Origin: a virus
Direction: 5' to 3' (one strand)
Virus record (IMG/VR): IMGVR_UViG_3300029787_005266
Coordinates: 1-64,000 of that record
DNA: 64,000 bases
In this document: positions 42,987-59,777 of the stretch, piece after piece
Numbering within the stretch: the first letter of the stretch is position 1
Layout: every line of letters starts with the position of its first letter
Notes under the pieces: model-generated
Told to the model about the DNA's origin: nothing
What the model saw: only the letters and a program-made list of their open reading frames with translations
The model's database searches: none
Translations under genes and position numbers: made by a program

Positions 42987-43015
42987 TTGATTTTTTGGCA
43001 TAAACTTATTATAAT
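42987..43015 (+). promoter_or_regulatory. Sigma70-type promoter of the accessory operon
   Basis: TTGATT (42987-42992), 17-base spacer, perfect TATAAT (43010-43015), ending five bases before the ATG at 43021. The -10 lies inside an 18-base perfect palindrome (43003-43020). No late box is present, so this operon is probably read by host-type polymerase, unlike the late genes before it. Confidence 0.65.
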
Positions 43016-43020: not shown

Positions 43021-43302
43021 ATGAGTTCGAAACAAAGATTTGCACTAAAACGTGATCTCTTATTGTTACAGCAACGAGTCAAATCACAAGAGGTGTTTGT
43101 GTATAATGGTTGCATGTTCAGGGCCGATGCCGTGACAGTGGCCTATGCACAGACAGTGAAAGATGATGCAGTTATCATAGATATAAATCAAACACCTTGC
43201 AGAATTGAAAACGCAGACGATTTTCGACGTACTCTACAACTTAAACACAACGAAATATTAAATGAGTATGAAAAAGAGTATCAAGAAATCACATTACGAT
43301 AA
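43021..43302 (+). CDS. Small hypothetical protein, first of the accessory operon
   Basis: The 93-residue protein has a basic helical start (MSSKQRFALKRDLLLLQQRV), a beta-like core with VFVYNGCMFRADAVTVAYAQ, and an acidic C-terminal helix. No known domain is recognised. The promoter ends five bases before its ATG. The next gene starts inside its last codons at 43262, so the two are coupled. Its position suggests an early expressed factor; the function is unknown. Confidence 0.6.
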   Translation: MSSKQRFALKRDLLLLQQRVKSQEVFVYNGCMFRADAVTVAYAQTVKDDAVIIDINQTPCRIENADDFRRTLQLKHNEILNEYEKEYQEITLR

Positions 43303-44050
43303 AGGCATATTGCTTTTCAGTTTTGACACACCTGAATTACAGTATTCAAAAATCACTAAAAAATGTATTGAACTGTTAAGAATATATTGTCCTGAGATTC
43401 CTGTAGTTGTTGTAGGCGACCAAATTATTAAATCTGCAGATTGGACTATACTGGCAGATGATCCTACTGCTAATGTGCATAATATCCGCGGTCCAAAACC
43501 ATGGAAAAACTTAGCACGAGTTGATGCCTATGAACTATCACCTTTTGATACTACGATAATAATTGATTCTGATTATCTTGTGTATGACAACAATTTACTG
43601 AAGTTGTTTGAATCAGATCAACCAGTGTTGGCACACACCACGTGGTGTGATATAAATTATGCAGAAGTATCCAGACTACCAATGGGCAATTCTATGTTGG
43701 ACATGATGTGGGCAACTGTGTTGATGTTCAAGAAAGACGACGCTGTAAGAGAGATGTTTGACACCTGGAGAAACATTTTGAAAAACTATCAATATTATGC
43801 ACAGATGTTTGGACTGAACAAACGCATGATTAGAAATGACCATGCGTTCACTATTGCTATGGCAAACATGCAAGACCATGGCTCTACAGAACACACAGTG
43901 ATACCATGGGATATTATCACAGCCAATCAAAATTTTGAAGTAAAAAAGATCACAAATAAAAATATTGTGTTGCAAGATCAACATGGCGAAATAATAGTTG
44001 ATCAAAGTGTACACATCTTAAACAAAGAAAGTTTATTAAATGCTATCTGA
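43262..44050 (+). CDS. Glycosyltransferase-like protein with DxD
   Basis: The 262-residue protein has a GT-A type layout: strand GILLFSFDTPEL, VVVVGDQ, then RGPKPWKNLARVDAYELSPF and TTIIIDSDYLVYDN, where DSD is the metal-binding DxD. This order (…K…R.DAY.LSPFD.T..IDSD) is typical of family 8-like transferases and related phage proteins. The start may be 43262 or the ATG at 43268; both lie within the previous gene. It overlaps the next gene by 11 bases. The donor sugar and acceptor are unknown. Confidence 0.65.
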   Translation: MSMKKSIKKSHYDKGILLFSFDTPELQYSKITKKCIELLRIYCPEIPVVVVGDQIIKSADWTILADDPTANVHNIRGPKPWKNLARVDAYELSPFDTTIIIDSDYLVYDNNLLKLFESDQPVLAHTTWCDINYAEVSRLPMGNSMLDMMWATVLMFKKDDAVREMFDTWRNILKNYQYYAQMFGLNKRMIRNDHAFTIAMANMQDHGSTEHTVIPWDIITANQNFEVKKITNKNIVLQDQHGEIIVDQSVHILNKESLLNAI

Positions 44051-44867
44051 CAAAGAACAGTATGGATATCTTACATATGCTTTGAATACTGGTGACACAG
44101 ATTATGAAAGTATTGCACATCTTTGGGCATTAAGTGTTAAACTTACACACAAACATTGTCCATCACTTGCTGTAATTGTAAAAGACAAACAAAAATGTAG
44201 AAGTAGTTTACACACTGTATTTGATCATGTAATAGAATTACCCATCAGAGATGTTGTTAATAATATGCAGTATGAGTGCGATGTGTTAAAGTTATCACCT
44301 TTCAAAGAAACAGTCAAATTTGAAGCAGACATGCTGTGTACATCCGACATAATGATATGGCAAAAATATTTTAGATTACGTGACTTGTGTTTTACAGGAC
44401 ATGTTTGCAATTTCAAACAACAACAAGCAGATGACTCGAAGTATAGGAGATACATTAAAACAAACCTGTTACCTAATGTATATCAAGGATTATATTATGT
44501 AAGGACAACAAGACAGACCGACAAGTTTATGAAAACAGCTAACAGTGTATTCAATAATTGGGATAAAGAAATTAAAAATTTGAGAATGTTTGACAAATTT
44601 GAACCATCTACAGATTTTGCATTCAGCATAGCATTAGACAAACTAAACATGAATAATTGTGTCAGTAATGATGTGTATCCGTCTTTTATACATGTAAAAC
44701 AAGGGATTGTAAAACAAGCAGATTGGGATCAGATAACATGGAGTTTATTAAAAAATAAGTATTTTACAGTGTGCGGTACACAATTATCATTGCCAATACA
44801 TTATTTTGACAAGTCATTCTGTACGGAAAAACTAATAAGGGAGTATGAATATGCCGTTGGAATATAG
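44040..44867 (+). CDS. Glycosyltransferase-like protein, DxD replaced by ExD
   Basis: The 275-residue protein is a relative of the preceding one: YGYLTYALNTGDTDY at the start, ECDVLKLSPFKETVKFEADM in the centre (here E-A-D instead of DxD), then a helical part. The substitution may alter or abolish metal binding. It overlaps both neighbours. It probably belongs to the same pathway or serves as a non-catalytic partner of 43262. Confidence 0.55.
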   Translation: MLSDKEQYGYLTYALNTGDTDYESIAHLWALSVKLTHKHCPSLAVIVKDKQKCRSSLHTVFDHVIELPIRDVVNNMQYECDVLKLSPFKETVKFEADMLCTSDIMIWQKYFRLRDLCFTGHVCNFKQQQADDSKYRRYIKTNLLPNVYQGLYYVRTTRQTDKFMKTANSVFNNWDKEIKNLRMFDKFEPSTDFAFSIALDKLNMNNCVSNDVYPSFIHVKQGIVKQADWDQITWSLLKNKYFTVCGTQLSLPIHYFDKSFCTEKLIREYEYAVGI

Positions 44868-45189
44868 AATATATTATCAAGACGAAGAAATTACCACAGT
44901 GACAACACAGACTGCAGAAGGTGAATACATTGTGGTTGATTCAAAAAAATGGCTAGATGTACAAAATAGTCCATCAGCATGGAAAGTAATTGATAAAACA
45001 CTGGAGAAAAAGATTATAGATCGTACAAATGGAAAAAAGAAAAAGAAATTTACAGTGAAAGGTCATGACACATTTCCAGGATGGGTAATAAAAAAATATC
45101 AACTGTATACAGCCATAGAATATGCTATTGAGGAACCTGAGTGGTTTGACCCCGAAAAACATGCAGTAGTAGGATATGAAGATGATTGA
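44851..45189 (+). CDS. Small hypothetical protein
   Basis: The 112-residue protein is read from the ATG at 44851, seven bases after AGGGAG; another ATG at 44845 is too close to that site. Residues 5-35 look beta-rich (YRIYYQDEEITTVTTQT). A lysine-rich stretch KKKKKF lies near residue 72, and the C-terminus is acidic. It overlaps the genes on both sides. No domain is recognised. Confidence 0.6.
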   Translation: MPLEYRIYYQDEEITTVTTQTAEGEYIVVDSKKWLDVQNSPSAWKVIDKTLEKKIIDRTNGKKKKKFTVKGHDTFPGWVIKKYQLYTAIEYAIEEPEWFDPEKHAVVGYEDD

Positions 45190-46060
45190 TGTAGCAGACT
45201 TGGATGTAATTTTTTTAAGTTATAACGAACCAAACAAAGAACACAACTGGGCAGATTTACGTTCTAAATGTCCGTGGGCAAAACGTGTGGACGGTGTAGA
45301 AGGTTCTGATGCGGCACACAAAGCGGCAGGAGAAGCATCAAGCACAGAACGTTTTATTTTGATAGACGGAGACAACATTGTAAATCCTGCCCTATTTGAT
45401 CAACAATTTGATATAGATAGTATGCCATCAGACGCAGTAATACGTTATCAAGGATTGAATATTGTGAATGGATTAAAATATGGCAATGGCGGCGTGTCTT
45501 CTTGGACTAGGAAGTTTGTCAAAGAAATGAAGACACATGAAAACTCACAAGGCGATGATGAAAGTCTAATTGAATTTTGTTTTCACAATCAATATGTTGC
45601 AATTCAAGAATGCTATTCTACTACTGTTATGAACAGCACTGACAAACAAGCATGGCAGGCTGGATTCAGAGAAGGTGTCAAAATGAGTCTTGATGAAGGC
45701 AAACGGGTATCACCGGCAAATTTTGTGAAAAACATATGGCGCGGAAATTTGAGAAATTTGTGTATTTGGATGAGTGTTGGTGCTGATGTAAAGAATGGTC
45801 TATGGGCAATATATGGTGCTTGCCAAGGTTGTCTTTGGACCACACTGCAACAGGATTGGGATCATTCTATTACACGTGACTTTACAGAATTAGACAATAT
45901 ATGGGATCAAACTATTGATCAAGGTGACGAAAGCCGAAAAACAGCTATTAAGGAGATGCACAATGACTTGAACTATCATTTAGGATTAAATGTTGCACTA
46001 CTAGATGATGAACAATCCAAGTTTGTTAAATTTATAAATTCATGTCCAGCGACTACTTAA
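45176..46060 (+). CDS. Phage glycosyltransferase-like protein (SYNEP/DGDN family)
   Basis: The 294-residue protein has a start LDVIFLSYNEPNKEHNW, then CPWAKRVDGVEG, AHKAAGEAS and ERFILIDGDNIVNP, where DGDN resembles a GT-A metal site. NIVNGLKYGNGGVSSWTRKF follows. The same fold and motif order occur at the C-terminus of the 1000-residue gene at 56775, so the two are paralogous. In marine phages this domain is common next to WHP-repeat proteins. It overlaps the genes before and after. Catalysis is not proven, but the DxD is intact here. Confidence 0.65.
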   Translation: MKMIDVADLDVIFLSYNEPNKEHNWADLRSKCPWAKRVDGVEGSDAAHKAAGEASSTERFILIDGDNIVNPALFDQQFDIDSMPSDAVIRYQGLNIVNGLKYGNGGVSSWTRKFVKEMKTHENSQGDDESLIEFCFHNQYVAIQECYSTTVMNSTDKQAWQAGFREGVKMSLDEGKRVSPANFVKNIWRGNLRNLCIWMSVGADVKNGLWAIYGACQGCLWTTLQQDWDHSITRDFTELDNIWDQTIDQGDESRKTAIKEMHNDLNYHLGLNVALLDDEQSKFVKFINSCPATT

Positions 46061-47409
46061 CAGATGCCAACAAGGCAAAACTAAAACTAGATAAGATTTC
46101 TGATTCTATGTGTCTGGCAAAATGGATGCAGACTTCTTTACACCTTACAAATGGCATGACAAACTCTTGCTATCATCCACCATTACACAAAATAGATGTA
46201 GAGCAAATCAAAACAAATCCTTCTAAATTACACAACACTGATGAAAAGAAACAGCAACGTGATCTAATGATAAATGGAAAAAGACCAGAAGGTTGTTCAT
46301 ACTGTTGGAAGTTAGAAGATGACAAACAGATGAGTGATCGACATTATAGGTCAGGAGAACCATGGGCAATGGATCATTATCAAAATATTTTAGATAATCC
46401 ACAAGCAGATATTGTGCCTACATATGTTGAGGTCGATTTCAGTAATGCATGTAACTTCAAATGTTCATATTGTTCGCCACAATTTTCAACTGCGTGGGCA
46501 AAAGAAACAGAAGAACATGGATCATGGCCAACATCAACACCACATAATGATCCAGCACATTTTAAAGGTGACAGAAAAGTTATGCCACAAAATGATAATC
46601 CATATGTTGAAGCATTTTGGAAATGGTGGCCAGAACTGTATCCACAATTACGTCATTTTAGAATGACAGGTGGTGAACCTATGATGGATAAAAATACATT
46701 TAGGGTGTTTGATTATGTAATAGAAAATCCAAAAAAAGATTTGCATTTAAACGTAACTTCTAATTTTTGTCCACCTACTCCTGCACTAGGTGACAGATAC
46801 TTTAACATGGTAAAAACAATGTGTGATGGAGCGATGATAGAACACTTCATGCAATTTGTATCTTTAGATGCTTGGGGAGAAAGAGCAGAGTATATAAGAA
46901 ACGGAATGGATTTTGGCACTGTATGGTCAAACGTACACAGATACTTGCATGATATTAAAGGTTACAATTCTATTACATTTATTATTACAATGAACAATCT
47001 TAGTGTGTCTAGTTTAAAAGAATTATTAGAAAACATTTTAAGATTAAGAGAACAATATTCTACAACATATCAACGGGTGTGGTTCGACACACCTATTTTA
47101 AGGTTTCCCATATGGCAACATATAGGATTGTTGGACGAATCCTTTAACCATTATTTCGAGGAGGCTATAGAGTTTATGGAGCAACACCGACATGACTCTA
47201 ACATGGCAGGGTTTAGAGATTTTGAAATTGCTAAACTTACTCGGACATACCGCATAATGCAACAAGGACTGGACAACAAGGAACAACACCTAGCAAACTT
47301 TTGGCGTTTCTTTCGAACTCATGACTCGAGACGTGAAACAGATTTGTTAGGTGTTTTTCCAGAATACAAAGATTGGTTTAAACAATGTCAACAAGCAACG
47401 AAGATTTAA
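46042..47409 (+). CDS. Radical SAM protein with N-terminal twitch domain, 1 of 5
   Basis: The 455-residue protein has the CX3CX2C cluster motif CNFKCSYC near residue 137, which binds the 4Fe-4S cluster that cleaves SAM. MTGGEPMMD near 212 and a conserved LDAWGERAEYIRNGMD further on follow. An extra N-terminal Cys domain (MCLAKWMQTSLHLTNGMTNSC, then CSYCWKLED) is the twitch-type auxiliary cluster region. It resembles the next protein closely and begins 19 bases before the end of the previous gene. The target (peptide, glycan or lipid) is unknown. Confidence 0.85.
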   Translation: MSSDYLTDANKAKLKLDKISDSMCLAKWMQTSLHLTNGMTNSCYHPPLHKIDVEQIKTNPSKLHNTDEKKQQRDLMINGKRPEGCSYCWKLEDDKQMSDRHYRSGEPWAMDHYQNILDNPQADIVPTYVEVDFSNACNFKCSYCSPQFSTAWAKETEEHGSWPTSTPHNDPAHFKGDRKVMPQNDNPYVEAFWKWWPELYPQLRHFRMTGGEPMMDKNTFRVFDYVIENPKKDLHLNVTSNFCPPTPALGDRYFNMVKTMCDGAMIEHFMQFVSLDAWGERAEYIRNGMDFGTVWSNVHRYLHDIKGYNSITFIITMNNLSVSSLKELLENILRLREQYSTTYQRVWFDTPILRFPIWQHIGLLDESFNHYFEEAIEFMEQHRHDSNMAGFRDFEIAKLTRTYRIMQQGLDNKEQHLANFWRFFRTHDSRRETDLLGVFPEYKDWFKQCQQATKI

Positions 47410-48731
47410 AATATAGAAGAGAGGTCCTAGACCCAAAATCTTCATCCTTCTGTGGAGCCAAATGGTATAATGCCACTATATGGTTAGGTTCTGGCATGAC
47501 CACAAGTTGCCATCATCCTTTGCCACACAAAATTGATTTAGAAGCAGTAAAAAATAATCCCAAAGCTCTGCATAACACACCCGAGAAAAAATTACAACGT
47601 GAGCAGATGCAGGCAGGTGAAAGACCTGCAGGTTGTGAATATTGTTGGAAAATAGAAGACCTAGGTGATAACAGTATATCTGACAGAGTATACAAATCAA
47701 ACATATATTCAAATGAAGATTTAGAGACAGCATTTAACACACCTTGTCAAAAAGATGTAGATTTACAAACATTAGAAATATCATTTGATAGGACTTGCAA
47801 TTTTGCTTGTTCTTATTGTAATCCTGCTTTTTCTACTACGTGGGTAAAAGATATCAAACAACACGGAGCATATGAAAAACTACAATCAGACGGCAGAAAT
47901 CATTTTACTCATGTACATGAATCATCACAACTGTATGGTTATCAAGAATACAATCCCTACATAGAAGCATTTTGGAAGTGGTGGGATTCAGACTTACATC
48001 GTACATTGAAAGAATTAAGAGTCACAGGTGGTGAACCTTTGATGAGTGCAGACATGTGGAAACTGTTTGATTGGTTCAAGGATAATCATGGCAAGTCAGA
48101 TACTAGGCTAGCAATTAATTCGAATCTGTGTCCTAAAGACAAATTAATGGATCAGTTGATTGAAAAGTCACACTATGTCAAAAACTTCGATGTCTATACT
48201 TCAGCTGAAGCAATGGGAACCAGAGCAGAGTATATTAGAGATGGCATGGACTTTGCATTATGGAAAAAGAATTGTCTGCGTCTTATAAATGAAGGCAGTT
48301 TGTCAGGATTGCATGTAATGATGACTGTGAATGCATTGTGTTTAGATTCATTGCCAGAAATGATTGATCTCTTAGTAAGTTGGAAACGCAAGTATGGTCC
48401 TGATTACCCGAATTTTACTCTCAATATATTACGTTTTCCGTCATTTCAGTCAGCAGTAGTATTGCCAACAAGTATCAAAAAAGAATGCATTGAGCAATTA
48501 ACAAAGCAAACACATGATTATTACAATGATTTGCATGGTATGGAACTTAATCAAATGCTGAGATTAATAGAATACCTTAAAGAAGTCGAAAGTCCTCATG
48601 AGGGAGCGGACAATGTGGATAAATTACAGAGTGACTTCAAGAACTTTTATTCACAGTATGATAAACGCAGAGGCAAAGACTTTGCAAATACATTTGGTAA
48701 CAAAATGGTAACATGGTATGAGCAGTTATAA
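47385..48731 (+). CDS. Radical SAM protein with N-terminal twitch domain, 2 of 5
   Basis: The 448-residue protein is a close paralog of 46042: CGAKWYNATIWLGSGMTTSC at the N-terminus, CEYCWKIED, the radical SAM motif CNFACSYC near residue 138, VTGGEPLMS, and AMGTRAEYIRDGMD. The likeness in both cluster regions shows tandem duplication. It overlaps its neighbours by 25 and 14 bases. No peptide precursor is visible beside it. Confidence 0.85.
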   Translation: MSTSNEDLKYRREVLDPKSSSFCGAKWYNATIWLGSGMTTSCHHPLPHKIDLEAVKNNPKALHNTPEKKLQREQMQAGERPAGCEYCWKIEDLGDNSISDRVYKSNIYSNEDLETAFNTPCQKDVDLQTLEISFDRTCNFACSYCNPAFSTTWVKDIKQHGAYEKLQSDGRNHFTHVHESSQLYGYQEYNPYIEAFWKWWDSDLHRTLKELRVTGGEPLMSADMWKLFDWFKDNHGKSDTRLAINSNLCPKDKLMDQLIEKSHYVKNFDVYTSAEAMGTRAEYIRDGMDFALWKKNCLRLINEGSLSGLHVMMTVNALCLDSLPEMIDLLVSWKRKYGPDYPNFTLNILRFPSFQSAVVLPTSIKKECIEQLTKQTHDYYNDLHGMELNQMLRLIEYLKEVESPHEGADNVDKLQSDFKNFYSQYDKRRGKDFANTFGNKMVTWYEQL

Positions 48732-49998
48732 AGACAAAATGCCCACACAAGTGGATGCTGACAAACTGACAGATAAGCAAAAGTTTTTGTTGAACGATTC
48801 TAAATATTTTTGCACACTGCCTTGGACACATTTACACGCTTATCCGAATGGAGCCGCATATCCTTGTTGTCTTGCAAAACATGAATTTCCCATTGGGTCT
48901 ATGAAAGAAAACACTATGAAAGAATTATGGAATAGTGCAGACATGAAAGACATCAGGAAAAACATGTTGAATGAAAAACCATCCAAACAATGTACCAAGT
49001 GTTATGAGCAAGAAGAACATGGATGGACGTCAATGCGAGAATCGTCTAATATACGTTATGGGCACCACATTGACAAAGTTCCACTTACAAAAGATGATGG
49101 AACTTATGATGATGTGAACATGATATATTGGGATATACGTTTTTCCAATCTGTGCAATTTGTCATGCAGATCCTGTGGCACATGGTTTTCTTCAAACTGG
49201 TATGATGACCAAGTAGCATTGTGGGGAGATCCTGGACACCCGAAAGTTACATATGCTGGCACCACTAAAATGGATGCCTATGAACAACTTATTGAATATT
49301 TGCCAATGGTCGAACAGGTATATTTTGCAGGTGGTGAACCTCTTATTATGGAAGAACATTATAAAATTTTACAAGCTCTTATAGATACAGGCAAAGCTGA
49401 TAGTGTGCGGTTACTTTACAATACAAATTTAACCAGACTGTCGTACAAAAAAACAAATGTATTAGATATTTGGCCTGAATTTAAAGATGTGGCAGTAGGG
49501 GCATCTTTAGATGCTATGGGGCCGAGAGCAGAACTTATGCGTAATGGAACAAAATGGGCCGATGTAGAACGTAACAGAGAAGATATGTTGAAAAAATGTC
49601 CTGATGTTGATTTTTACATATCGCCAACTGTAGGCATTTTTAACTATTCACACATAATTGACTTTCATAATGATTGGGTGCAAAAAGGATTCATCAGAGA
49701 AGGTGATATAAATGTAAACATGATACAAGATCCATTACATTATAGAATAGATGTAATTACTCCAAAAATGAAAAAAGAAGTTGAACCAAAGTACAAAGAA
49801 CACATAGAAAAGATTAGGCCAAAAGATCATTTGAATCGAGCCACAGGTGGATTTGAATCTGCATTGAATATGATGATGGCCGATGATAGGAGTGATCTTA
49901 TACCTACTTTCAAAAGAATCACATCACAGTTGGATAGACATCGTGGACAGGAAACACATGAAATATTTCCTGAGTTGTCGGAGATACTAATTGACTAA
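48718..49998 (+). CDS. Radical SAM protein with N-terminal twitch domain, 3 of 5
   Basis: The 426-residue protein has an N-terminal twitch region, FCTLPWTHLHAYPNGAAYPC with a second Cys pair (QCTKCYEQEE), the radical SAM motif CNLSCRSC near residue 147, and FAGGEPLIMEEHY near 203. SLDAMGPRAELMRNG follows. This form with CTLPW near residue 30 is the commoner version in marine phages and bacteria. The ATG overlaps the previous stop region. Confidence 0.87.
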   Translation: MSSYKDKMPTQVDADKLTDKQKFLLNDSKYFCTLPWTHLHAYPNGAAYPCCLAKHEFPIGSMKENTMKELWNSADMKDIRKNMLNEKPSKQCTKCYEQEEHGWTSMRESSNIRYGHHIDKVPLTKDDGTYDDVNMIYWDIRFSNLCNLSCRSCGTWFSSNWYDDQVALWGDPGHPKVTYAGTTKMDAYEQLIEYLPMVEQVYFAGGEPLIMEEHYKILQALIDTGKADSVRLLYNTNLTRLSYKKTNVLDIWPEFKDVAVGASLDAMGPRAELMRNGTKWADVERNREDMLKKCPDVDFYISPTVGIFNYSHIIDFHNDWVQKGFIREGDINVNMIQDPLHYRIDVITPKMKKEVEPKYKEHIEKIRPKDHLNRATGGFESALNMMMADDRSDLIPTFKRITSQLDRHRGQETHEIFPELSEILID

Positions 49999-51151
49999 AA
50001 TTTGTACATTGCCTTGGATGCATTTAGAAACTACTCCGTTGGGCGAATATCGACCATGCTGTCTTGCAGAAGAATCAATCAAACGTTCAGATGGTACGCC
50101 ATACGACATATCAAAAGGTGACACTATCAAAGATGCATTCAATTCTGAATACATGGAGAATATGCGTGATGAATTTTTACAAGGTGGACAGCCTGAAACT
50201 TGTAGCAAGTGTTGGTCTTTAGAAGAAGCAGGTGGTACATCGAAAAGGATGATATCAAATGAAAAGTTTGGGATTAACACTGATGAAAAAGGTATTACAT
50301 TCTTAGATTTAAAACTAGGCAATATTTGTAATTTAAAGTGCAGAATCTGTGGAGGATTTTCATCGTCTAAATGGGCCGCCGAAGAAATAAAGCAGGGCAG
50401 TGAAAATGCTAAAAGCTGGCTCAAAGCAGGCATGTGGCCACGCAAAACTGATTCATTATGGAACGAAGTTGTTGATATGTTGCCGCAAATAGAACATTTT
50501 GAATTTACTGGCGGCGAACCTTTTATGATTCAAGAACATTTTGACCTGTTAGAAAAAAGTGTTGAACTAGGCTATGCTAAACAGCAAGAAATACATTATA
50601 ATACAAATGGCACACAGTTTCCAGAATATGCTATGAAACATATATGGCCACATTTTAAAGATGTAGAAATAGCATTTAGTATTGATGACATAAGAGCAAG
50701 ATTTGAATATCAGAGATATGGAGCCAAATGGGATCAAGTGAACGAAAATATACGCAAGTTCAATGAATTAAAATCCAACAGTAAAAATATTTCAACACAG
50801 ATTTGTTGCACAATTAACATCCAAAACATTTATAACTTAGACAATATGGCTGATTGGATAAAGCAACAAAACTTTGATTATGTGTTTTACAATTATCTAC
50901 ATGAAGCAAAAGAATGGAATGTGCAATATTTGCCTATTCATTTGAAGCAAGAAATTAAAAAGAAACTTGAAGCATATGATGGAGACTTATGGCATTATAA
51001 ACAGATACAAAATGCAATAAACTTTATGATGTCTGCAAATTTATATTCAGAAGAAATGGACCATAAACGCAAGATAAAAATAAAACTGAGTGATCAATTT
51101 AGAAACGAATCATTTGCAGAAACTTTTCCAGAATTAAAAGAGTTAGTATGA
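49991..51151 (+). CDS. Radical SAM protein with N-terminal twitch domain, 4 of 5 (TTG start)
   Basis: The 386-residue protein must start at TTG 49991 because the conserved ICTLPWMHLE begins three residues later; GGAG lies eight bases upstream. It has YRPCCLAEE, CSKCWSLEE, the radical SAM motif CNLKCRIC near residue 112, FTGGEPFMIQEHF near 169 and an AFSIDDIRARFEYQRYG segment. It overlaps the preceding stop by eight bases. The use of a TTG start inside an overlapping operon may lower its yield relative to its neighbours. Confidence 0.85.
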   Translation: MTKICTLPWMHLETTPLGEYRPCCLAEESIKRSDGTPYDISKGDTIKDAFNSEYMENMRDEFLQGGQPETCSKCWSLEEAGGTSKRMISNEKFGINTDEKGITFLDLKLGNICNLKCRICGGFSSSKWAAEEIKQGSENAKSWLKAGMWPRKTDSLWNEVVDMLPQIEHFEFTGGEPFMIQEHFDLLEKSVELGYAKQQEIHYNTNGTQFPEYAMKHIWPHFKDVEIAFSIDDIRARFEYQRYGAKWDQVNENIRKFNELKSNSKNISTQICCTINIQNIYNLDNMADWIKQQNFDYVFYNYLHEAKEWNVQYLPIHLKQEIKKKLEAYDGDLWHYKQIQNAINFMMSANLYSEEMDHKRKIKIKLSDQFRNESFAETFPELKELV

Positions 51152-52476
51152 GCAAAGATTGGAAAACACCAGAAGAAGGCAATTTAACATTTTGTATGGC
51201 TCCATGGACACATACATATTTGTCACCTACATCTGAAAGACGTCTGTGTTGTGCTTCTACTGAGCCTGCACAAAGTTTTGAACAATACATTGATACATCT
51301 GAAGGCACAAACGAATATAATCCGATGTCTTTACCAGCATGGTGGAACAGTGATCATATGAAGTCTGTAAGGCAAAGAATGCTTAAGGGCGAGATGTTGC
51401 CAGAGTGTCAAGTGTGCAATCACAACATATTACATACTAGTCCTTACAGAAAACATTTCAATCAACTGTTTGAAAATTTAATTAAAGAAGCATACCAAAA
51501 AACAAATTCAGATGGCAGTACAGATATGCCAGTTGTATCTTTTGATTATAGATTTTCAAACTTGTGTAATTTTATGTGTAGAATGTGCGGATCAAATCTG
51601 TCCTCTAGTTGGGAAACTGAAGAAAGAAAATACATTGAAAATTTTGACAAAGTTCGACCATGGGCAAGTAAAGAAGTAAAAAAAGCAACTGCAGAATTTG
51701 TCGCTAACATGGCAGAACCAGAATTTGAACATGCTATAAAAAATAAACAAATCCGTGAAGTGTATTGGGTAGGTGGAGAACCATTGATGTATCATCAACA
51801 TTGGAAGTTCATGAAAATGATTGTGGACACAGGACAAGCCGGTAATGTGTATGCAAGGTATAACACTAATTTAAGTAGGATAGTGTTCAAAAATTTAAAC
51901 CTGTTTGACGATGTACTTTCAAAATTTAGTGCATGGGAAGTGTGTGCAAGTATAGATGGCACAGGCCCTACAGGCGAATATATTAGATCAGGTTTAGATT
52001 GGGAGAAATGGTTAGACAATTGGAAACATGCACACAAGTTTCAAAACGGTCGGAATAAAATATTAAATTTAGACTTCACTATAACCACAGCAGGAATATG
52101 GGAAATAGAAAAAATGTTCGAACTAAGTTTAGAATATAATGTACCTATTATTGCAAAACAAACTTTCGCATTCAGTTCCGAAGTATTAATGAGTTGCAGA
52201 GCAATACCTAAACACATTTTACAAAGAATATTTTCTAACATTTTAGAAAGAATAGAGCCACGAGCAACAAAAAAACAAAAAGGTTTAGTGGATCAACTAA
52301 AACACATGATACAACAAGGACATTTTGTTGATGACTACCCTGATGATTATGAAGAAGGAATAAAAGACGGCAAAGAATTTATTTTACACATGGAAAGTAG
52401 AAGAAAAAATCCTGTCACAATGCGTGAAATAATGTGGAAAGACAAAGAACTAGGAGAATGGTATGACTCAATATAA
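51148..52476 (+). CDS. Radical SAM protein with N-terminal twitch domain, 5 of 5
   Basis: The 442-residue protein has FCMAPWTHTYLSPTSERRLC at the N-terminus, CQVCNHNIL, the radical SAM motif CNFMCRMC near residue 142, WVGGEPLMYHQHW near 208, and ASIDGTGPTGEYIRSGLD. The ATG overlaps the stop of copy 4 (ATGA), and its end overlaps the SGNH gene by 14 bases. Together the five genes occupy 46042-52476 without a gap. Confidence 0.87.
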   Translation: MSKDWKTPEEGNLTFCMAPWTHTYLSPTSERRLCCASTEPAQSFEQYIDTSEGTNEYNPMSLPAWWNSDHMKSVRQRMLKGEMLPECQVCNHNILHTSPYRKHFNQLFENLIKEAYQKTNSDGSTDMPVVSFDYRFSNLCNFMCRMCGSNLSSSWETEERKYIENFDKVRPWASKEVKKATAEFVANMAEPEFEHAIKNKQIREVYWVGGEPLMYHQHWKFMKMIVDTGQAGNVYARYNTNLSRIVFKNLNLFDDVLSKFSAWEVCASIDGTGPTGEYIRSGLDWEKWLDNWKHAHKFQNGRNKILNLDFTITTAGIWEIEKMFELSLEYNVPIIAKQTFAFSSEVLMSCRAIPKHILQRIFSNILERIEPRATKKQKGLVDQLKHMIQQGHFVDDYPDDYEEGIKDGKEFILHMESRRKNPVTMREIMWKDKELGEWYDSI

Positions 52477-53143
52477 ACATATTGTTAGTGCAGGATGTTC
52501 TTTTATACATGGCAGTGAATTAGGTGATGAAGTTCCATATTCACAGTCCACCTATCCTGCTTTGATATCAAAACAATTAGACACCACTTATGAATGTCTT
52601 GCATATCCTTCAGCATCTAATCAAGGCATAGCAAAAAATATTCTACAGCATTCACCACAGCAACACACATTGTACATTGTTCAATGGACATATCCTTCTA
52701 GGTTTGGAGTGAATCTAAATTTTGAAATTAAAGACAAAAACAAAAGCAAAACTACATGGTTTGATCTTGCTCCAAACTCATGGGATTACAATCCAAAAGC
52801 ATTTCATGAATACACTGAATATTCAAAACAACTGATTGATATGGGAATACCGGAACTAAGTGAACAATATTACAAGTATACAGGCAACAATGATCAGTTC
52901 ATGTTCCAAACTGAACTCTGTGTGAAAGCAGTGCAACAGCATTGTAGACAACACGAAGCAGGATATCTTTTTTATACTGCAACCAGTGAATTGCTACAAT
53001 TGGAAGATATAAAAGGGTTTGATGGCAAAGGTTTTGTAGAATGGGCAACAGACAGCAAGTATCCACATGGTCCTTACAAACATCCTTTACACCAAGCACA
53101 TTCAGATGCCGCTTCGCTAGTAATGGTAAGATTAAAAGGATAA
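52463..53143 (+). CDS. SGNH/GDSL hydrolase-like protein
   Basis: The 226-residue protein begins HIVSAGCSFIHGSELGD; S13 in AGCSF fits the nucleophile of block I. ASNQGIAKN provides the Asn position. HPLHQAHSDAA near the C-terminus fits block V with the catalytic His. Family members are esterases, acyl- or acetyltransferases acting on glycans and lipids. Position among radical SAM and glycosyltransferase genes suggests acyl-group addition to or removal from a glycan; this is inference. Confidence 0.65.
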   Translation: MTQYKHIVSAGCSFIHGSELGDEVPYSQSTYPALISKQLDTTYECLAYPSASNQGIAKNILQHSPQQHTLYIVQWTYPSRFGVNLNFEIKDKNKSKTTWFDLAPNSWDYNPKAFHEYTEYSKQLIDMGIPELSEQYYKYTGNNDQFMFQTELCVKAVQQHCRQHEAGYLFYTATSELLQLEDIKGFDGKGFVEWATDSKYPHGPYKHPLHQAHSDAASLVMVRLKG

Positions 53144-53151
53144 TTACACAT

Positions 53152-53256
53152 ATGTTTAGATGGATCAAAAAATTGTACAACAATATTCTTCTTGAAATAC
53201 GGTACAGGAAAAAAATGAAAGAGCTGAAGAAGAAGGATCCTTTCATTTATCACTAA
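53152..53256 (+). CDS. Conserved 34-residue mini-protein (DPFIYH)
   Basis: The short frame in the gap between two long genes encodes a basic amphipathic peptide, MFRWIKKLYNNILLEIRY followed by RKKMKELKKKDPFIYH. Peptides ending in (K)RDPFIY are familiar from marine T4-like phages, which supports real coding. It could lie at a membrane surface, since the first 20 residues are hydrophobic-basic. The start ATG at 53152 has no strong Shine-Dalgarno sequence. Longer in-frame starts upstream lie in the previous gene and are rejected. Confidence 0.65.
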   Translation: MFRWIKKLYNNILLEIRYRKKMKELKKKDPFIYH

Positions 53257-53259
53257 TCA

Positions 53260-54297
53260 ATGAAAAATACTTTTTGCCTATGGGAATACACTGGAGTAGA
53301 TTCTATCTACAACACTGGCAAACTTGTTAAAGACCTTACAACGTATATCAAAACACAAACATTACAAAACGAAGAAATAATTTTAGATATGTATCCGGAA
53401 GGTTATAGTCTACATCATAATGGAGTATGGAGTATTATTGAAGCAGTGTGTGAAGCATGTGATACACACCCAGCATCTTTGACATTAGTAATTGGGGATA
53501 TGACTGCCGATTATCCGTGTAACGTGATTATACATCAACCTAGATGGCTAATGGAAACTGCCGCTGAGTTTCCAAATTTTAAGCAAGATTTCGATAAAGT
53601 TGCAGAAAAAAAATTCTTGCACTTCATAGGTCGAGCCACGTGGGATAGGATAGGGGTCAACAAATATTTGAGAGAAAATTATGCTGATGATTCATGGGTA
53701 ACAATCGGTCCAACTAGAAACAGACAAAGAGTAATTGATGACACATTTCATGGTTTGACAAACAATCACTTTACTCCTGATCAAATTGTAGACATGATGA
53801 AATACACTTTAAATCCTCCAAAAAACTTTTTGGTGGAAACAGCACGTGAAGATTACACTACGTTTCCAGATAATATGCTACCTTTACAGCATATGTACAC
53901 CAATGCATTTGTTGAGATAGTACATGAAACAGACATACACGATAATAATTTTTTTATAACAGAAAAAACTATCAGGCCAATCTTGTTCAAAAAGCCATTT
54001 ATAACCATGTGCGGAAAACACTTCTGCAAGAATCTACGCACACTAGGTTTTAAAACCTTTGATGATTGGTTTGATGAACGATATGATGAAGTTAATGCTA
54101 GACAACGATACGATGCAGTTCTTAAAAGAATTATTAATATTGGAAAAATGAGCTACAAAGAGTTGTCAGAATGGAACCTAGAAATGCGTGACACTGTTGA
54201 ACATAATTTTCAGCATCTGCTTACAAAAGGTTGGCTAGAACATTTAGACAAATTCGATGTACAATTTTGGCACGATGGCAAGGGACAATTATTATGA
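53260..54297 (+). CDS. Exostosin/fucosyltransferase-like glycosyltransferase, copy 1
   Basis: The 345-residue protein has NNFFITEKTIRPILFKKPFI near residue 230, then LRTLGFKTFDDWFDERYDE. The TEK..RP.LF..PF pattern is the donor-binding C-terminal part of GT-B type enzymes of the exostosin/fucosyltransferase group, frequent in phages. FLHFIGRATWDRIGVNKYL at about 127 is shared with the following gene. The two are tandem paralogs. It lies three bases after the mini-protein gene, without a clear Shine-Dalgarno sequence. Confidence 0.7.
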   Translation: MKNTFCLWEYTGVDSIYNTGKLVKDLTTYIKTQTLQNEEIILDMYPEGYSLHHNGVWSIIEAVCEACDTHPASLTLVIGDMTADYPCNVIIHQPRWLMETAAEFPNFKQDFDKVAEKKFLHFIGRATWDRIGVNKYLRENYADDSWVTIGPTRNRQRVIDDTFHGLTNNHFTPDQIVDMMKYTLNPPKNFLVETAREDYTTFPDNMLPLQHMYTNAFVEIVHETDIHDNNFFITEKTIRPILFKKPFITMCGKHFCKNLRTLGFKTFDDWFDERYDEVNARQRYDAVLKRIINIGKMSYKELSEWNLEMRDTVEHNFQHLLTKGWLEHLDKFDVQFWHDGKGQLL

Positions 54298-55334
54298 TAG
54301 TAGACTCAGTCACAGAGTGTTATGATCTTAATGCATCAGGGCATGTAAATTTGCACGAAACATTTCCATCTTTGAAAGATGACCTCCGTGCCTACTTTAT
54401 CAGATGCAATAAACAAGGAATTAATCCTATTATAGATTTCACCAATGAAGGGTATGGATTGTATGCCAATGGTGCGTGGCCAATCATTGAAAGTGTTGCC
54501 GAAGAATGTGGGATCAAAATGAATAGATTGACTTTGTACATATCTGATATGTTTGCATCATATCCTTGCAACACAATGCCTTTAGTGAATGATAAATGGT
54601 TACAAGTGTATACACCAGATTCTGAACCAGATGTGACCGACAGACTTTTTAAAAAATTTGGTCATTTTATAGGAAGAGCATCACCAGATAGGCTGGCTAT
54701 GCATGTGATGTTAGAAAAATATCAAAACGATATGTGGTACTCTATATGGAATGGCTGGGATTTTGATGACAATTTTTTTGCTAGATTAAAAAATTACATT
54801 CCATTCAAATTTGACAAAGGCAAACTGATAGGAAGAGCAAGAGAAGTAGCGGAACAATTACCTCAAAAAAATACATATGAAACTCCTAGTAAAGATGATT
54901 TTTATGAATGGCCTAGACAAGTTGCTCCATTACATTTTTATTACAAAAATATGTTTGTTGATATTGTAAGTGAAACAGATCTTGACACTTGCTTCACTAC
55001 AGAAAAAACTTTGAGACCTATTATTTTCAAAACACCATTTTTGTTAATGGCAGGCAAAGGCACACTGCAAAAATTAAAAGAGATTGGTTTTAAAACATTT
55101 AACAATTGGTGGTCAGAAGATTACGACAGGTATTCACACAGACAAAGATTGGAAAAAATATTAGACATTGTAGATTGGATTAGTGTACAATACAATGTAA
55201 AGGAATTAAAAGCAGAAATGAATAGCATTTTGGAATACAATTATAATCATTATGTGAATCAAACGTGGATTCCTATGGCAAAAGAGATGGGTATTCCGGA
55301 CAGTGCATTTGGAGACACAAGAACATGGGAGTAG
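54294..55334 (+). CDS. Exostosin/fucosyltransferase-like glycosyltransferase, copy 2
   Basis: This 346-residue paralog of the preceding protein has FGHFIGRASPDRLAMHVML, DTCFTTEKTLRPIIFKTPF and LKEIGFKTFNNWWSEDYD at equivalent places. The ATG at 54294 overlaps the preceding stop (ATGATAG); a TTG at 54231 is rejected because it would lie deep in the previous gene. Two linked copies with diverged N-termini suggest two successive transfers or two acceptors. Confidence 0.7.
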   Translation: MIVDSVTECYDLNASGHVNLHETFPSLKDDLRAYFIRCNKQGINPIIDFTNEGYGLYANGAWPIIESVAEECGIKMNRLTLYISDMFASYPCNTMPLVNDKWLQVYTPDSEPDVTDRLFKKFGHFIGRASPDRLAMHVMLEKYQNDMWYSIWNGWDFDDNFFARLKNYIPFKFDKGKLIGRAREVAEQLPQKNTYETPSKDDFYEWPRQVAPLHFYYKNMFVDIVSETDLDTCFTTEKTLRPIIFKTPFLLMAGKGTLQKLKEIGFKTFNNWWSEDYDRYSHRQRLEKILDIVDWISVQYNVKELKAEMNSILEYNYNHYVNQTWIPMAKEMGIPDSAFGDTRTWE

Positions 55335-56773
55335 TTTGGGGAGCATCAGCACACTTTCATGATGCAGGCTTGAGTGTGGTCAAAGATGGCGAAGTTGTAT
55401 TTGGTGCTCATGCAGAAAGATATTCTGGAGTAAAACATGACAAGTTGCTAAATCAAGACATTATCAACGAAGCACTTACTTGGGGTAGACCTGATGTAGT
55501 TGCATGGTACGAAAAACCATGGAAGAAGAATATTAGAAAGTTATGGACTGGCGAATGGCGGTATTCAAAATTTGATACACACCCAAGCAAGTATCTTAAA
55601 CAGTTTGGCATTGATGCTCCAGTTAAATTGTATGATCATCATTACACTCATGCAACAGCAGGATATTTTACATCACCATTTAAAGAAGCAGTCATTGTGG
55701 TAGCAGATGCTATTGGAGAGTTTGAATGTATTACTATATGGGAGGCAAAAGGGAATAAACTAAAAAGACTGGCGTCATGGTCTTATCCTCACTCACTAGG
55801 TTTGTTATATTCAGCATTTACTCAAAGATGCGGATTGAAGCCTATGGATGAAGAGTATATCACAATGGGAATGGCAGGTTGGGGTGAACCTAAGTACGCA
55901 CATCAAATCAAACAAGAATTTGTAAATCCGACACACTTTCATTTGAAGAAAAATGTACACAAAGGAATAGGCAACTGGATGCCAGATGCACAAGTGGAGG
56001 ATATTGCGGCTTCAATACAACAAGTCACAGAAGAGTGCATTGATCAATTGATGTGTACTGCCTACACATGGACAAGAATGAACAATGTGGTTTTTATGGG
56101 TGGTGTTGCTCTCAACTGTGTGGCCAACCATTTGTTGCATGATTACTTTGATAATGTGTGGATAATGCCCAATCCAGGAGATTGTGGATCTTCACTAGGA
56201 GCCGCACTTGCACACCGAGGATCACACGTTAAATGGCCGGGGCCGTACATTGGCACCAATATTGATAATCCATACCCTGTAGAGGCGTTATTGCACGAAT
56301 TAGACACCAAAAAGATAGTGGGAGTAGCGTCTGGTCGTGCTGAATTTGGGCCACGTGCTTTAGGACACAGATCATTGTTAGCAGACCCTAGAGGCACTGA
56401 AATTAAAGATCAAGTGAACGCAATAAAACGCAGACAAAAGTTCAGACCATTTGCTCCTGCAATACTGGAAGAACATGTCCAACACAACTTTAAAATGTGT
56501 ACCAGTCATTCACCTCATATGCAGTTTGTGGGCGAGTGTTTAAAACCAGATTTGTATCCAGCAATCATTCATGTGGATGGCACCAGCAGAGTACAAACAG
56601 TGGGCAAAAATGATTCAACAGGATTCAGAGCATTGTTAGAAGCTTGGTATGCTAAAACAGGTTGTCCTATGTTGTTGAATACGTCACTAAACATCAGAGG
56701 TGAGCCAATGGTAAACACAAGAGAAGATGCTGATCGCTTCGAAGAAAAATATGGTGTAAAGGTTTGCTCGTGA
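55325..56773 (+). CDS. Carbamoyltransferase, NodU/CmcH/TobZ family
   Basis: The 482-residue protein begins GVVWGASAHFHDAGLSVVKD. It has DHHYTHATAGYF near residue 104 (metal-binding His), VVADAIGEFECITIW, GGVALNCVAN near 260, and the C-terminal GRAEFGPRALGHRSLLADPR near 336 and LLNTSLNIRGEPMV near 450. These cover both the Kae1-like and YrdC-like parts, so the enzyme looks complete though shorter than TobZ. The family transfers a carbamoyl group from carbamoyl phosphate to hydroxyls of sugars or antibiotics. The ATG at 55325 is nine bases after GGAG; an upstream start at 55265 lies in the previous gene. Confidence 0.9.
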   Translation: MGVVWGASAHFHDAGLSVVKDGEVVFGAHAERYSGVKHDKLLNQDIINEALTWGRPDVVAWYEKPWKKNIRKLWTGEWRYSKFDTHPSKYLKQFGIDAPVKLYDHHYTHATAGYFTSPFKEAVIVVADAIGEFECITIWEAKGNKLKRLASWSYPHSLGLLYSAFTQRCGLKPMDEEYITMGMAGWGEPKYAHQIKQEFVNPTHFHLKKNVHKGIGNWMPDAQVEDIAASIQQVTEECIDQLMCTAYTWTRMNNVVFMGGVALNCVANHLLHDYFDNVWIMPNPGDCGSSLGAALAHRGSHVKWPGPYIGTNIDNPYPVEALLHELDTKKIVGVASGRAEFGPRALGHRSLLADPRGTEIKDQVNAIKRRQKFRPFAPAILEEHVQHNFKMCTSHSPHMQFVGECLKPDLYPAIIHVDGTSRVQTVGKNDSTGFRALLEAWYAKTGCPMLLNTSLNIRGEPMVNTREDADRFEEKYGVKVCS

Positions 56774-56774
56774 C

Positions 56775-59700
56775 ATGTATGACAGATATACATTCGAAGG
56801 ACAAATTACGCAACATAAATCCAACACAGAATGGTATTGGCTCACAGACAGTCGAGTAGATTATTCTAATTTTAATTTTGATTATGATCCTCCCGATTGG
56901 GAAAAACAATTTATACATGCTTTTGGAGATCAACACTCTGTGCATGGCGGAACCTATCTGGTGCACATCAATCATAATAATGAAACAGACTTTAAATTTG
57001 TACCGCAAACAGTAACAAGAAATCAAGCATTTGATGTTTTTACTGATACACATGAAATAGACTTTCAATCGGAAACATCAACTGAATGGTATTGGGTGAC
57101 CAGTCCATTTAATGATTACGTCAATTTTGATTTTACATGGCATCCTGCATTATGGGAGAAAAATTTTGTTCATGTTTTTCCTGATCAACACTGCACACAT
57201 GGCGGCACTTACATTATCCATAAGGATTGTGACTTGGCAAACATTGAATACAAGTATCACAACTTTATCATCCAACGCACTGGATACAATCACCTTCATT
57301 GGAAAACTGATGACAGAAATTCATATGCTGGATTCGATTTTACTTGGCATCCAGAACCATGGGAAGAAAAATATGTGCATTGTTTCGGCGATCAACATGC
57401 TGATGATTCACGCACATATTATGTTGCAGATGAAGTCGACTTTGCCAATGCAAGGAAATATTATCATCCTAAGACTGTAACATGTCACAAACCATTCCAA
57501 AGATTTCATGGTGTAAAAATACAGAACTGTATTACTGAAGATGAATACTACTGGATAACCAGCGATGGCAATGATTACTCTAATTTTGATTTTACTTGGC
57601 ATCCAGATGAATGGCAAAGCAAGTACGTTCATTGCTTCGGAGATCAATACTCAGATGATGCTGGAACATACCTCGTGCATCGTGACACTGACATAAACAA
57701 TGCCAGAACACAGTATCATCCAAATGCCATTACCCGTACAGAATCATTTGAACAGTTTCATGTCAAAGGACTGCAAAAATGTGACACCAAACAAGATTGG
57801 TATTGGATTGTGGATGATGCAAATGATTACCAAAATTTTGATTTCAAATGGCATCCAGAATCATGGAAGGGCAGATATGTCCACTGCTTCGGAGATCAAC
57901 ATTCTGACGATGCAAACACCTATCTAGTACCAAAAGACTGTGATTTGGATAATGTCAAAGTAGAGTATCATAATCATGCTTTTCAACGTGTTAAACCATG
58001 GAATAGATTCAAAATAAGCGGTCTTAAGACGGTGTATTCGGACACGGACTGGTACTGGATCATCTCCGATGAAAATGACTATACAGACTTCGATTTTACA
58101 TGGCATCCAGAGAGTTGGCAAACCAAATATGTGCATTGTTTCGGTGATCAACATGCAGATGATTCCAACACATATCTGGTTCACAAAAGTCATGATATTA
58201 CCAATATCAGATGGCAATATCACCCTGACACTGTTGTCAGAACTGCTAAATTTGATATCATAGAATATGATGGAGAATTAAATCATCATGCAGAATCTGA
58301 TACTGAATGGTATTGGTTAACAAGCAAAGAAAATGATTACTCTGATTTTGATTTCACATGGCATCCTGAAACAGCACAACGCAAATTTGTTCACGTGTTT
58401 GGAGATCAATTTTCAGAAACTTCAGGCACATATTTGATCAATAAAGAATTGGATCCAAACGATTGTAGACAACAGTTCCATGAGAACAAAGTTGTACGCA
58501 AAACCACAGGCACAATACACAGATGTTCCAACATGATGCCTGATGACGAAGGCACAAGATTGTTTTCAAACTTGTTTAATTTCATAAAACGAATAGCAAA
58601 CAACAGTGATGAAAGAAACATTTGGATTACTGCTTCTATTGTAGATGATGCTAATTTTGATTACAAATGGCATCCTGCTGACTGGGAATCGAAGTATATT
58701 CATGTGTTCCACAATGAACAATCTGAATACGGATATGTAATGTGGGTGCCACTTGCTGAGTTCAAAAAGCAAATGGACACCTTGCAAAAATTAGAATGGT
58801 TCGATACAATAAAATATCATGCAACTGATTTGACCTATCATGATCTTCCAGTGAACGAATATTCATTAGGCAAAGGCGCCGCCGAAAAGATACAACAACA
58901 CACATTTACTCATCACTATGAATGGTTTGTGGAAGACAGTGTGCTCCAACAAAACTTGCCAAACTATTATCCTGCAAGATGGGACGAAGTCAACATCAAT
59001 TGTTTTGGTACACATAAGCAAATGTTGTTAGTGCCACGTGAAGCAAAATCATTTGTAGTCGATCAAGTGTATGATTACCCTGCCATTGATACTCACCAAC
59101 ATAATATATCAACGCAACCTAATGACATAATTTTTATATCATATGATGAACCTATGGCTGATGAAAAATATGAACAACTCATAAAAAAATATCCAAGGGC
59201 CAAAAGGGTGCATGGGATAAAAGGTCAGACACAGGCTTATCACAAAGCGGCAGAAACATCGAACACTGATTATTTTTTTGCTGTGTTCCCTAAGTTAGAT
59301 ATTCATCCTGACTTTGATTTTGAATATCAAGTTGATAGATTGCACAATCCCTGTCATTGGATTTTCAACAGTTTCAATCCAGTGAATGGTTTAAAATATG
59401 GTCATGAAGGTATAATTCTTTACAATAAAAATCTAGTGCTGGAAACGACAGATCCTGGAATAGACTTCACAATGTCCAAGGCACATGATTTTGAAGACAT
59501 TATGAGTACCACAATGCTGTTCAATCAAGATCCATGGTTAGCATGGAGAACTGCTTTCCGTGAAGTGGTTAAACTGAATTACTTTAATAGTCAAAAACCT
59601 GACAAGATTACACAGGAACGTTTACAGATTTGGTGTACAGTGGCGGAAGGTGAAAACAGCGAGTGGGTATTGCAAGGAGCGAATGACGGTCAAAAGTTTT

Positions 59701-59777
59701 TCGAAAGTGGTCAAGATCTAAAATTAAGTTATGATTTTGAATGGTTGAAGAATCAGTTTAATAAGGTTTCCATTTAA
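56775..59777 (+). CDS. 1000-residue WHP/FGDQ repeat protein with C-terminal GT-A-like domain
   Basis: The first 780 residues hold about nine copies of a unit of roughly 80 residues, starting near 18, 103, 173, 253, 341, 424, 510, 613 and 714. The core is (Y)WYWxTSxxNDYxDFDF then TWHPxxWxxKYVHCFGDQ then ..DDSxTYLV. Copies 3-6 are most alike; 8 and 9 have degraded. The last 215 residues repeat the fold of the 45176 protein (IISYDEP, PRAKRVHG, NPVNGLKYG). The acidic DGDN site there is replaced by FPKLD, so this copy may be inactive. Such repeat proteins are known from marine phages but have no assigned function; glycan binding is possible. It is the last gene of the operon and converges with 59758. 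Confidence 0.75.
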   Translation: MYDRYTFEGQITQHKSNTEWYWLTDSRVDYSNFNFDYDPPDWEKQFIHAFGDQHSVHGGTYLVHINHNNETDFKFVPQTVTRNQAFDVFTDTHEIDFQSETSTEWYWVTSPFNDYVNFDFTWHPALWEKNFVHVFPDQHCTHGGTYIIHKDCDLANIEYKYHNFIIQRTGYNHLHWKTDDRNSYAGFDFTWHPEPWEEKYVHCFGDQHADDSRTYYVADEVDFANARKYYHPKTVTCHKPFQRFHGVKIQNCITEDEYYWITSDGNDYSNFDFTWHPDEWQSKYVHCFGDQYSDDAGTYLVHRDTDINNARTQYHPNAITRTESFEQFHVKGLQKCDTKQDWYWIVDDANDYQNFDFKWHPESWKGRYVHCFGDQHSDDANTYLVPKDCDLDNVKVEYHNHAFQRVKPWNRFKISGLKTVYSDTDWYWIISDENDYTDFDFTWHPESWQTKYVHCFGDQHADDSNTYLVHKSHDITNIRWQYHPDTVVRTAKFDIIEYDGELNHHAESDTEWYWLTSKENDYSDFDFTWHPETAQRKFVHVFGDQFSETSGTYLINKELDPNDCRQQFHENKVVRKTTGTIHRCSNMMPDDEGTRLFSNLFNFIKRIANNSDERNIWITASIVDDANFDYKWHPADWESKYIHVFHNEQSEYGYVMWVPLAEFKKQMDTLQKLEWFDTIKYHATDLTYHDLPVNEYSLGKGAAEKIQQHTFTHHYEWFVEDSVLQQNLPNYYPARWDEVNINCFGTHKQMLLVPREAKSFVVDQVYDYPAIDTHQHNISTQPNDIIFISYDEPMADEKYEQLIKKYPRAKRVHGIKGQTQAYHKAAETSNTDYFFAVFPKLDIHPDFDFEYQVDRLHNPCHWIFNSFNPVNGLKYGHEGIILYNKNLVLETTDPGIDFTMSKAHDFEDIMSTTMLFNQDPWLAWRTAFREVVKLNYFNSQKPDKITQERLQIWCTVAEGENSEWVLQGANDGQKFFESGQDLKLSYDFEWLKNQFNKVSI
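56820..59050 (+). repeat. Nine diverged coding repeats, WHP/FGDQ unit
   Basis: Units of about 240 bases within the preceding gene. The segment coding FDFTWHP recurs near 57130, 57340, 57590, 58090 and 58350 with little change in protein sequence and more in DNA. Confidence 0.8.

Follow-up and report, generated by a model that had tools for sequence, protein, structure and literature searches.

What does a virus make with five radical SAM proteins encoded one behind the other among genes for putative sugar transferases? This question is raised by an operon at positions 43021-59777 of a viral DNA stretch, here called the window, which comprises positions 1-64000 of the 91,042-base IMG/VR virus record IMGVR_UViG_3300029787_005266. 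On balance, we consider it probable that the operon constitutes one pathway for building and tailoring an unusual glycan or glycoconjugate. An earlier note on this DNA had described a sixteen-gene overlapping operon on a single strand. The gene block indeed consists of 16 plus-strand genes that overlap or are separated by a few bases, arranged 5' to 3' as n, g1, g2, p, g3, the radical SAM genes R1-R5, the gene for an SGNH-hydrolase-like protein, an open reading frame (ORF) of 34 amino acids, X1, X2, a carbamoyltransferase gene (C) and the repeat protein gene rep. The same operon is present on the closely related contig IMGVR_UViG_3300006737_007029 (L001), too.

The five tandem radical SAM proteins at 46042-52476, also noticed earlier, belong to N_Twi_rSAM, the NCBIfam family NF033640 (twitch domain-containing radical SAM protein, curated cut-off 170 bits):

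46042-47409, plus strand: R1, N_Twi radical SAM protein (NF033640, 320.6 bits; own orthologue clade)
47385-48731, plus strand: R2, N_Twi radical SAM protein (311.6 bits; own clade)
48718-49998, plus strand: R3, N_Twi radical SAM protein (406 bits; own clade)
49991-51151, plus strand: R4, N_Twi radical SAM protein with a TTG start (346.1 bits; own clade)
51148-52476, plus strand: R5, N_Twi radical SAM protein (309.1 bits; single clean clade)

All of them exceed the cut-off (309-406 bits) over nearly the full length, and they have the CX3CX2C motif and the N-terminal auxiliary-cluster cysteines of the family. The catalytic motifs are intact: CX3CX2C is kept in 400 of 400 homologues of usable length, and within each of the five clade alignments no variation was seen in this motif, in the GGEP motif or in the N-terminal C...C...CxxC set, with four or five invariant cysteines located N-terminal to the barrel in every clade. 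Each of R1-R5 should therefore bind two clusters. R3 and R4 score above the cut-off of the Pfam model SPASM, R5 scores below it, and R1 and R2 give no match. In a FastTree phylogeny of the 400 homologues R1, R2, R3, R4 and R5 each form a separate clade, indicating that they are old, distinct enzymes and not recent duplicates. Across 62-70 loci R1, R2 and R5 are essentially single-copy in each locus; for R3 and R4 there are some additional copies. Five old paralogues in fixed order distinguish the operon from bacteria, in which the homologues were mostly found singly or otherwise placed. No description of an ordered five-radical-SAM array was found in the literature, including the accessible text of PMC7029224 and PMC7150976. 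Among 50,697 phage records R3 and R5 match only the Vibrio phages K566 and K567, with about 25% identity. In these phages (K566 is L089), the only matches among named phages, several radical SAM genes distantly resembling N_Twi lie near each other; the two phages are a possible experimental entry.

Related loci were gathered in three ways, by similarity to the radical SAM proteins (80 loci), to g3 (79 new loci) and to R5 (79 new loci); the samples share some contigs. Each scan gave at least 577-593 relatives, so that the abundance is a lower bound. In the 56 R5-selected loci with enough flanking sequence the array is inherited as a block: R1, R2 and R3 were present in all 56, R4 in 54, the carbamoyltransferase in 55, and R1-R4 together with the carbamoyltransferase in 54. 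The order g3-R1-R2-R3-R4-R5-Q-C, or the same order lacking g3 within the fetched stretch, was found in 46 R5-selected loci, and R4 and R5 are swapped in six. In related loci the gene between R5 and the carbamoyltransferase encodes Q, a conserved protein family of about 350 residues (e.g. L053, 11258-12322); Q was not found in the record of the window, it has no clear relatives in Pfam or PDB, and a PDB profile search with it gave nothing useful. Pairwise divergence is correlated among the genes g1, g2, g3, R1-R5, Q and C (r 0.30-0.90), and for no pair was the observed value attained in any of 100 permutations; this correlation also reflects shared phage ancestry. Furthermore, the ratio of non-synonymous to synonymous substitution rates (dN/dS) between the window and L001 was 0.015-0.18 for every gene tested, the dS of R4 being saturated, and all genes tested are under purifying selection. 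The same order across dozens of environmental phages indicates that the five enzymes and the sugar genes probably form one pathway. The earlier proposal that the genes act jointly is thus strongly supported by the fixed order, the usually single orthologue per genome and the correlated divergence, and a scattered, independent gain and loss was not seen for R1-R5 and the carbamoyltransferase.

The first genes of the operon form a smaller core:

43021-43302, plus strand: n, first gene of the cassette, 93 amino acids, no assigned function
43262-44050, plus strand: g1, putative GT-A glycosyltransferase with an invariant DxD-type motif (D102-D104)
44040-44867, plus strand: g2, putative GT8-like (glycogenin-like) glycosyltransferase, weak profile match to glycogenin-1 (E 0.02)
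44845-45189, plus strand: p, small protein; most loci have a gene of this size between g2 and g3, whether or not they carry radical SAM genes
45176-46060, plus strand: g3, GT-A-like glycosyltransferase with a conserved DGD, the most conserved core gene

Among the 79 g3-selected loci n, g1 and g2 were present in 74 and at least one radical SAM gene in 60, so the g1-g2-g3 core exists also without radical SAM genes. In 19 of these loci rep is the next recognised gene after g3. This gene content defines n-g1-g2-small gene-g3-rep as the minimal cassette, and the five-enzyme array sits between g3 and rep in a subset of loci. A homologue of the virion-protein gene at 41976-42968 was detected within 1.5 kb upstream of n in 84 of 90 loci; the genomic site is therefore fixed. 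The window also encodes baseplate and virion proteins and SbcC/SbcD homologues, and its DNA polymerase gave the best matches to large T4-like phages (nearest among named phages Sinorhizobium phage Phosso, 48% identity), identifying the phage as a T4-superfamily myovirus. A 4308-amino-acid open reading frame lies among its tail genes (18869-31795), and tail-fibre genes adjoin the operon.

According to the accessible part of a 2020 study, pelagimyophages possess a host recognition cluster which is variable and holds tail fibres and many glycosyltransferases, including those of lipopolysaccharide type, and into which radical SAM-related cassettes were added between two genomes (PMC7029224). In SAR11 phages this cluster is flanked by VrlC and gp14. 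Radical SAM and glycosyltransferase genes are likewise among the prominent genes of Tasman Sea phages in the available text of PMC7150976. The locus described here has in common with the pelagimyophage cluster the T4 superfamily, the tail-fibre structural region, several glycosyltransferases and radical SAM cassettes, but the accessible text describes neither a fixed array of five genes nor a carbamoyltransferase or a repeat protein of GT-A type (PMC7029224). The operon could accordingly be regarded as a pile of unrelated host-interaction genes in a variable island, which would agree with the hypervariability reported for the corresponding pelagimyophage region in that part of the study (PMC7029224), with the varying number of radical SAM genes and with the existence of the minimal n-g1-g2-g3-rep form. 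However, array-bearing loci hardly vary in the order and membership of R1-R5 and the carbamoyltransferase, and the cassette genes diverge in a correlated manner. This explanation is largely contradicted already and we consider it very improbable.

The glycan part of the pathway is suggested by the genes on both sides of the array. The motif D[GA]D of g3 is present in 153 of 153 homologues ungapped at that site. The predicted structure of g3 (predicted local distance difference test, pLDDT, 82.4) gave as top Foldseek matches mostly GT-A transferases or nucleotidyltransferases, all weak (best E 1e-4, TM about 0.3-0.4), and a profile search of PDB with g3 yielded nothing useful; g1 has no significant match in Pfam or PDB. 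Downstream of the array the following genes are located:

52463-53143, plus strand: SGNH-hydrolase-like protein with GCSF and C-terminal H motifs
53152-53256, plus strand: small basic ORF of 34 amino acids; a longer ORF containing it has matches in two other loci
53260-54297, plus strand: X1, putative GT-B glycosyltransferase (AlphaFold pLDDT 75.5; weak GT-B Foldseek matches, best E 0.003)
54294-55334, plus strand: X2, paralogue of X1
55325-56773, plus strand: O-carbamoyltransferase of the NodU/CmcH/TobZ type (PF02543, PF16861; structures NovN, GdmN, TobZ)
56775-59777, plus strand: rep, tandem degenerate GT-A segments and a g3-like GT-A domain lacking DxD

The carbamoyltransferase had been recognised correctly. 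With both Pfam domains (Carbam_trans_N, E 3e-39; Carbam_trans_C, E 4e-51) and similarity to solved O-carbamoyltransferases, as in TobZ, NovN, GdmN and NodU, its identity is certain, but it differs in that it shares 28-47% identity with its best homologues from named phages. Both phages examined that carry such a gene, the cyanophage S-SSM7 and phage C48C1, have it without the cassette. A label as exostosin-like proteins (GT47) for X1 and X2 had to be rejected, as there is no Pfam exostosin match in either protein or their relatives; both look weakly GT-B-like, and a PDB profile search with X gave nothing useful. For the SGNH-like hydrolase the motifs are present, and Pfam gave no significant match.

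The repeats noted for the last protein, of 1000 amino acids, are real, and its identity was corrected to a degenerate GT-A repeat protein. Over its last 250 residues rep shows homology to g3 (28% identity, E 7e-24), but it reads AVFPKL at the position of the catalytic DGD. Its repeats resemble a DxD-bearing GT-A segment (HHalign probability 96.6%), L085 providing a clear intermediate; rep therefore consists of degenerate glycosyltransferase segments strung together. Among scorable loci, 37 of 38 without R2/R5 retain the DxD of rep and 19 of 20 with R2/R5 have lost it, a pattern which may be due to the common descent of array-bearing phages and not to a functional switch. Neither rep nor g3 has a match in the 50,697 phage records.

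Sugar-nucleotide genes adjoin the operon as a compact deoxysugar module on the opposite strand (59758-63006, convergent with the operon), and similar genes are found near rep in other loci:

59758-60963, minus strand: DesII-like radical SAM sugar ammonia-lyase, convergent neighbour (TIGR04426, E 6e-96; DesII structures, E 5e-66)
60947-62092, minus strand: DegT/DnrJ/EryC1 sugar aminotransferase (PF01041, E 2e-96)
62089-63006, minus strand: NAD-dependent epimerase/dehydratase (PF01370, E 1e-31)

The DesII-like protein lies below the equivalog cut-off of TIGR04426 (322 versus 450 bits); with its matches to DesII structures, the DesII-like label was retained. A DegT aminotransferase, a DesII-like radical SAM enzyme and an epimerase side by side are shared with the DesI/DesII pathway of desosamine; the remaining desosamine pathway was not identified here. 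In the same loci, matches to DegT and the epimerase lie downstream of R5, with none found upstream of n; the profiles had been built mostly from downstream genes. After g3, related loci also contain genes for UDP-glucose dehydrogenase, APS kinase, FkbM methyltransferase and PIG-L deacetylase, and on a marine single-cell virus fragment two SGNH-like genes, a carbamoyltransferase gene and an N_Twi-like radical SAM gene are consecutive. These neighbours have functions in glycan tailoring and favour it as the role of the cassette. The earlier note had placed the product on the virion or host surface; the neighbourhood and the weak fold matches speak for a glycan or glycoconjugate and do not extend to its surface location.

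Several points weigh against a glycan as substrate of the array. No characterised substrate of an N_Twi_rSAM protein and no function for the family was found. SPASM-type enzymes of known substrate act mostly on peptides, the SPASM-type auxiliary cluster being typical of peptide maturases, and the peptide maturase SkfB is the only PDB match of R4; PDB profile searches with R1 and R3 gave nothing useful. Bacterial N_Twi_rSAM genes have mixed neighbours, most commonly further radical SAM genes and GT2 enzymes. In addition, g1, X and the SGNH-like protein are assigned by no family model, and the fold matches of X1 are as weak as those of g3 (TM about 0.3-0.4). With no N_Twi_rSAM substrate found and SkfB as the match of R4, a protein target is possible. 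As the main rival explanation, the radical SAM enzymes would modify a protein, e.g. the virion protein at 41976-42968 or rep, which the transferases would then glycosylate; the position of the virion-protein gene directly before the cassette and the coincidence of the rep DxD loss with the array would agree with such a maturation. A biosynthetic cluster for a ribosomally synthesised and post-translationally modified peptide was rejected, however, as the overlapping array genes leave no room for a precursor-peptide gene, and p was rejected as precursor peptide because it is also present in loci without radical SAM genes. As, moreover, the repeats of rep are accounted for as degenerate GT-A segments and sugar-nucleotide genes are linked to the cassette, we regard protein maturation as rather unlikely.

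In the glycan pathway that we favour, g1, g2, g3 and X would transfer sugars, and the neighbouring DesII-like, DegT and epimerase genes would supply a deoxysugar. Each of the five N_Twi radical SAM enzymes may introduce a different radical change into the glycan, i.e. oxidation, epimerisation, deoxygenation or bond formation. Addition or removal of O-carbamoyl or O-acyl groups would fall to the carbamoyltransferase and the SGNH-like protein, and rep could serve as a non-catalytic scaffold or glycan-binding protein of GT-A origin. The likeliest target would be the host envelope, where the modification may change receptors and exclude competing phages.

When the cassette is expressed bears on this target. 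The single promoter reported upstream of the operon has the following position:

42987-43015, plus strand: sigma-70-type promoter TTGATT-17-TATAAT with predicted start at the ATG of n (leaderless)

The -10/-35 pattern alone is weak (111 sites found, 84 expected). Comparative support comes from 58 of 124 distinct loci in which a -10 box lies 5-7 nucleotides (nt) upstream of the n start codon ATG, at a distance of 6 nt in 40 of these; for the main other cassette genes such a box near the start was found in 0-9%. A chance promoter was rejected owing to this conserved position. With a spacing of 5-7 nt the transcript would start at the ATG of n, giving a leaderless mRNA. The same arrangement is present at other non-structural genes of the phage (2551; 8803, minus strand; a QueE-like and a FolE-like gene, both named by eye), and 143 such leaderless sites were detected in 81 related loci (1.57 Mb) compared to 16 in the reversed sequence. 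This sigma-70-type arrangement seems to represent a class of early promoters general to the phage family. TATAAT-like boxes 5-7 nt before an ATG were seen at window positions 2551, 5179 (minus), 8803 (minus) and 43021, and in L007 at 7338, 8266 and 12520 (all minus). The only two TATAAATA boxes of the window, resembling T4-late promoters, lie 6-18 bases before the structural genes at 15382 and 40429, a number not above chance. As n shares its promoter class with non-structural genes, unlike the T4-late boxes, expression of the cassette probably precedes the late phase, in agreement with the earlier note, which had argued from the host-type promoter; the cassette would be transcribed early and from its own leaderless promoter. 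A variant of the glycan pathway, overlapping with it, is the attachment of the glycan to the virion, i.e. to the tail fibres, instead of the host envelope. It would suit the fixed position behind the tail-fibre and virion genes and is less easily reconciled with a host-type promoter where structural genes carry TATAAATA boxes; early expression is compatible with virion targets, and we hold this variant to be possible, if doubtful.

Radical SAM enzymes perform chemistry beyond that of ordinary enzymes, and multi-enzyme arrays of them are rare. A five-step radical SAM pathway might lead to a chemically new, radical-modified and carbamoylated glycan on a scaffold of tandem dead glycosyltransferase segments, a logic undescribed in virus or cell; we put this forward only tentatively. 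The fixed-order array in dozens of phage contigs examined, with at least hundreds more matching, and the lack of g3 matches among phage records suggest an important modification in uncultivated viruses. The strict orthology points to one defined biochemical target per enzyme, making the function of N_Twi_rSAM testable.

Bacterial metagenome-assembled genomes (MAGs) of GTDB include short contigs with the phage cassette (L090, L092-L094, L105, L124, L129; labels Pelagibacter, Betaproteobacteria, Rhodobacteraceae and others). A host assignment via MAG contigs (L090, L092-L094; labels Pelagibacter, Betaproteobacteria, Verrucomicrobia, Rickettsiales) was rejected, as these are short phage-like contigs in bins. 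Amidinotransferase-like proteins were recognised by eye in L007 (9341-10321, minus; 10345-11412, plus) and L223 (2585-3904, minus), the one checked having no Pfam match, and such a protein also adjoins cassette-like genes of the single-cell virus fragment AG-345-D19. Likewise by eye, L007 (7370-8281 and 11822-12520, both minus) and L008 (1773-3311, minus) were seen to contain QueE-like, GTP-cyclohydrolase-like and TGT/DpdA-like genes, which possibly represent a 7-deazaguanine DNA modification pathway.

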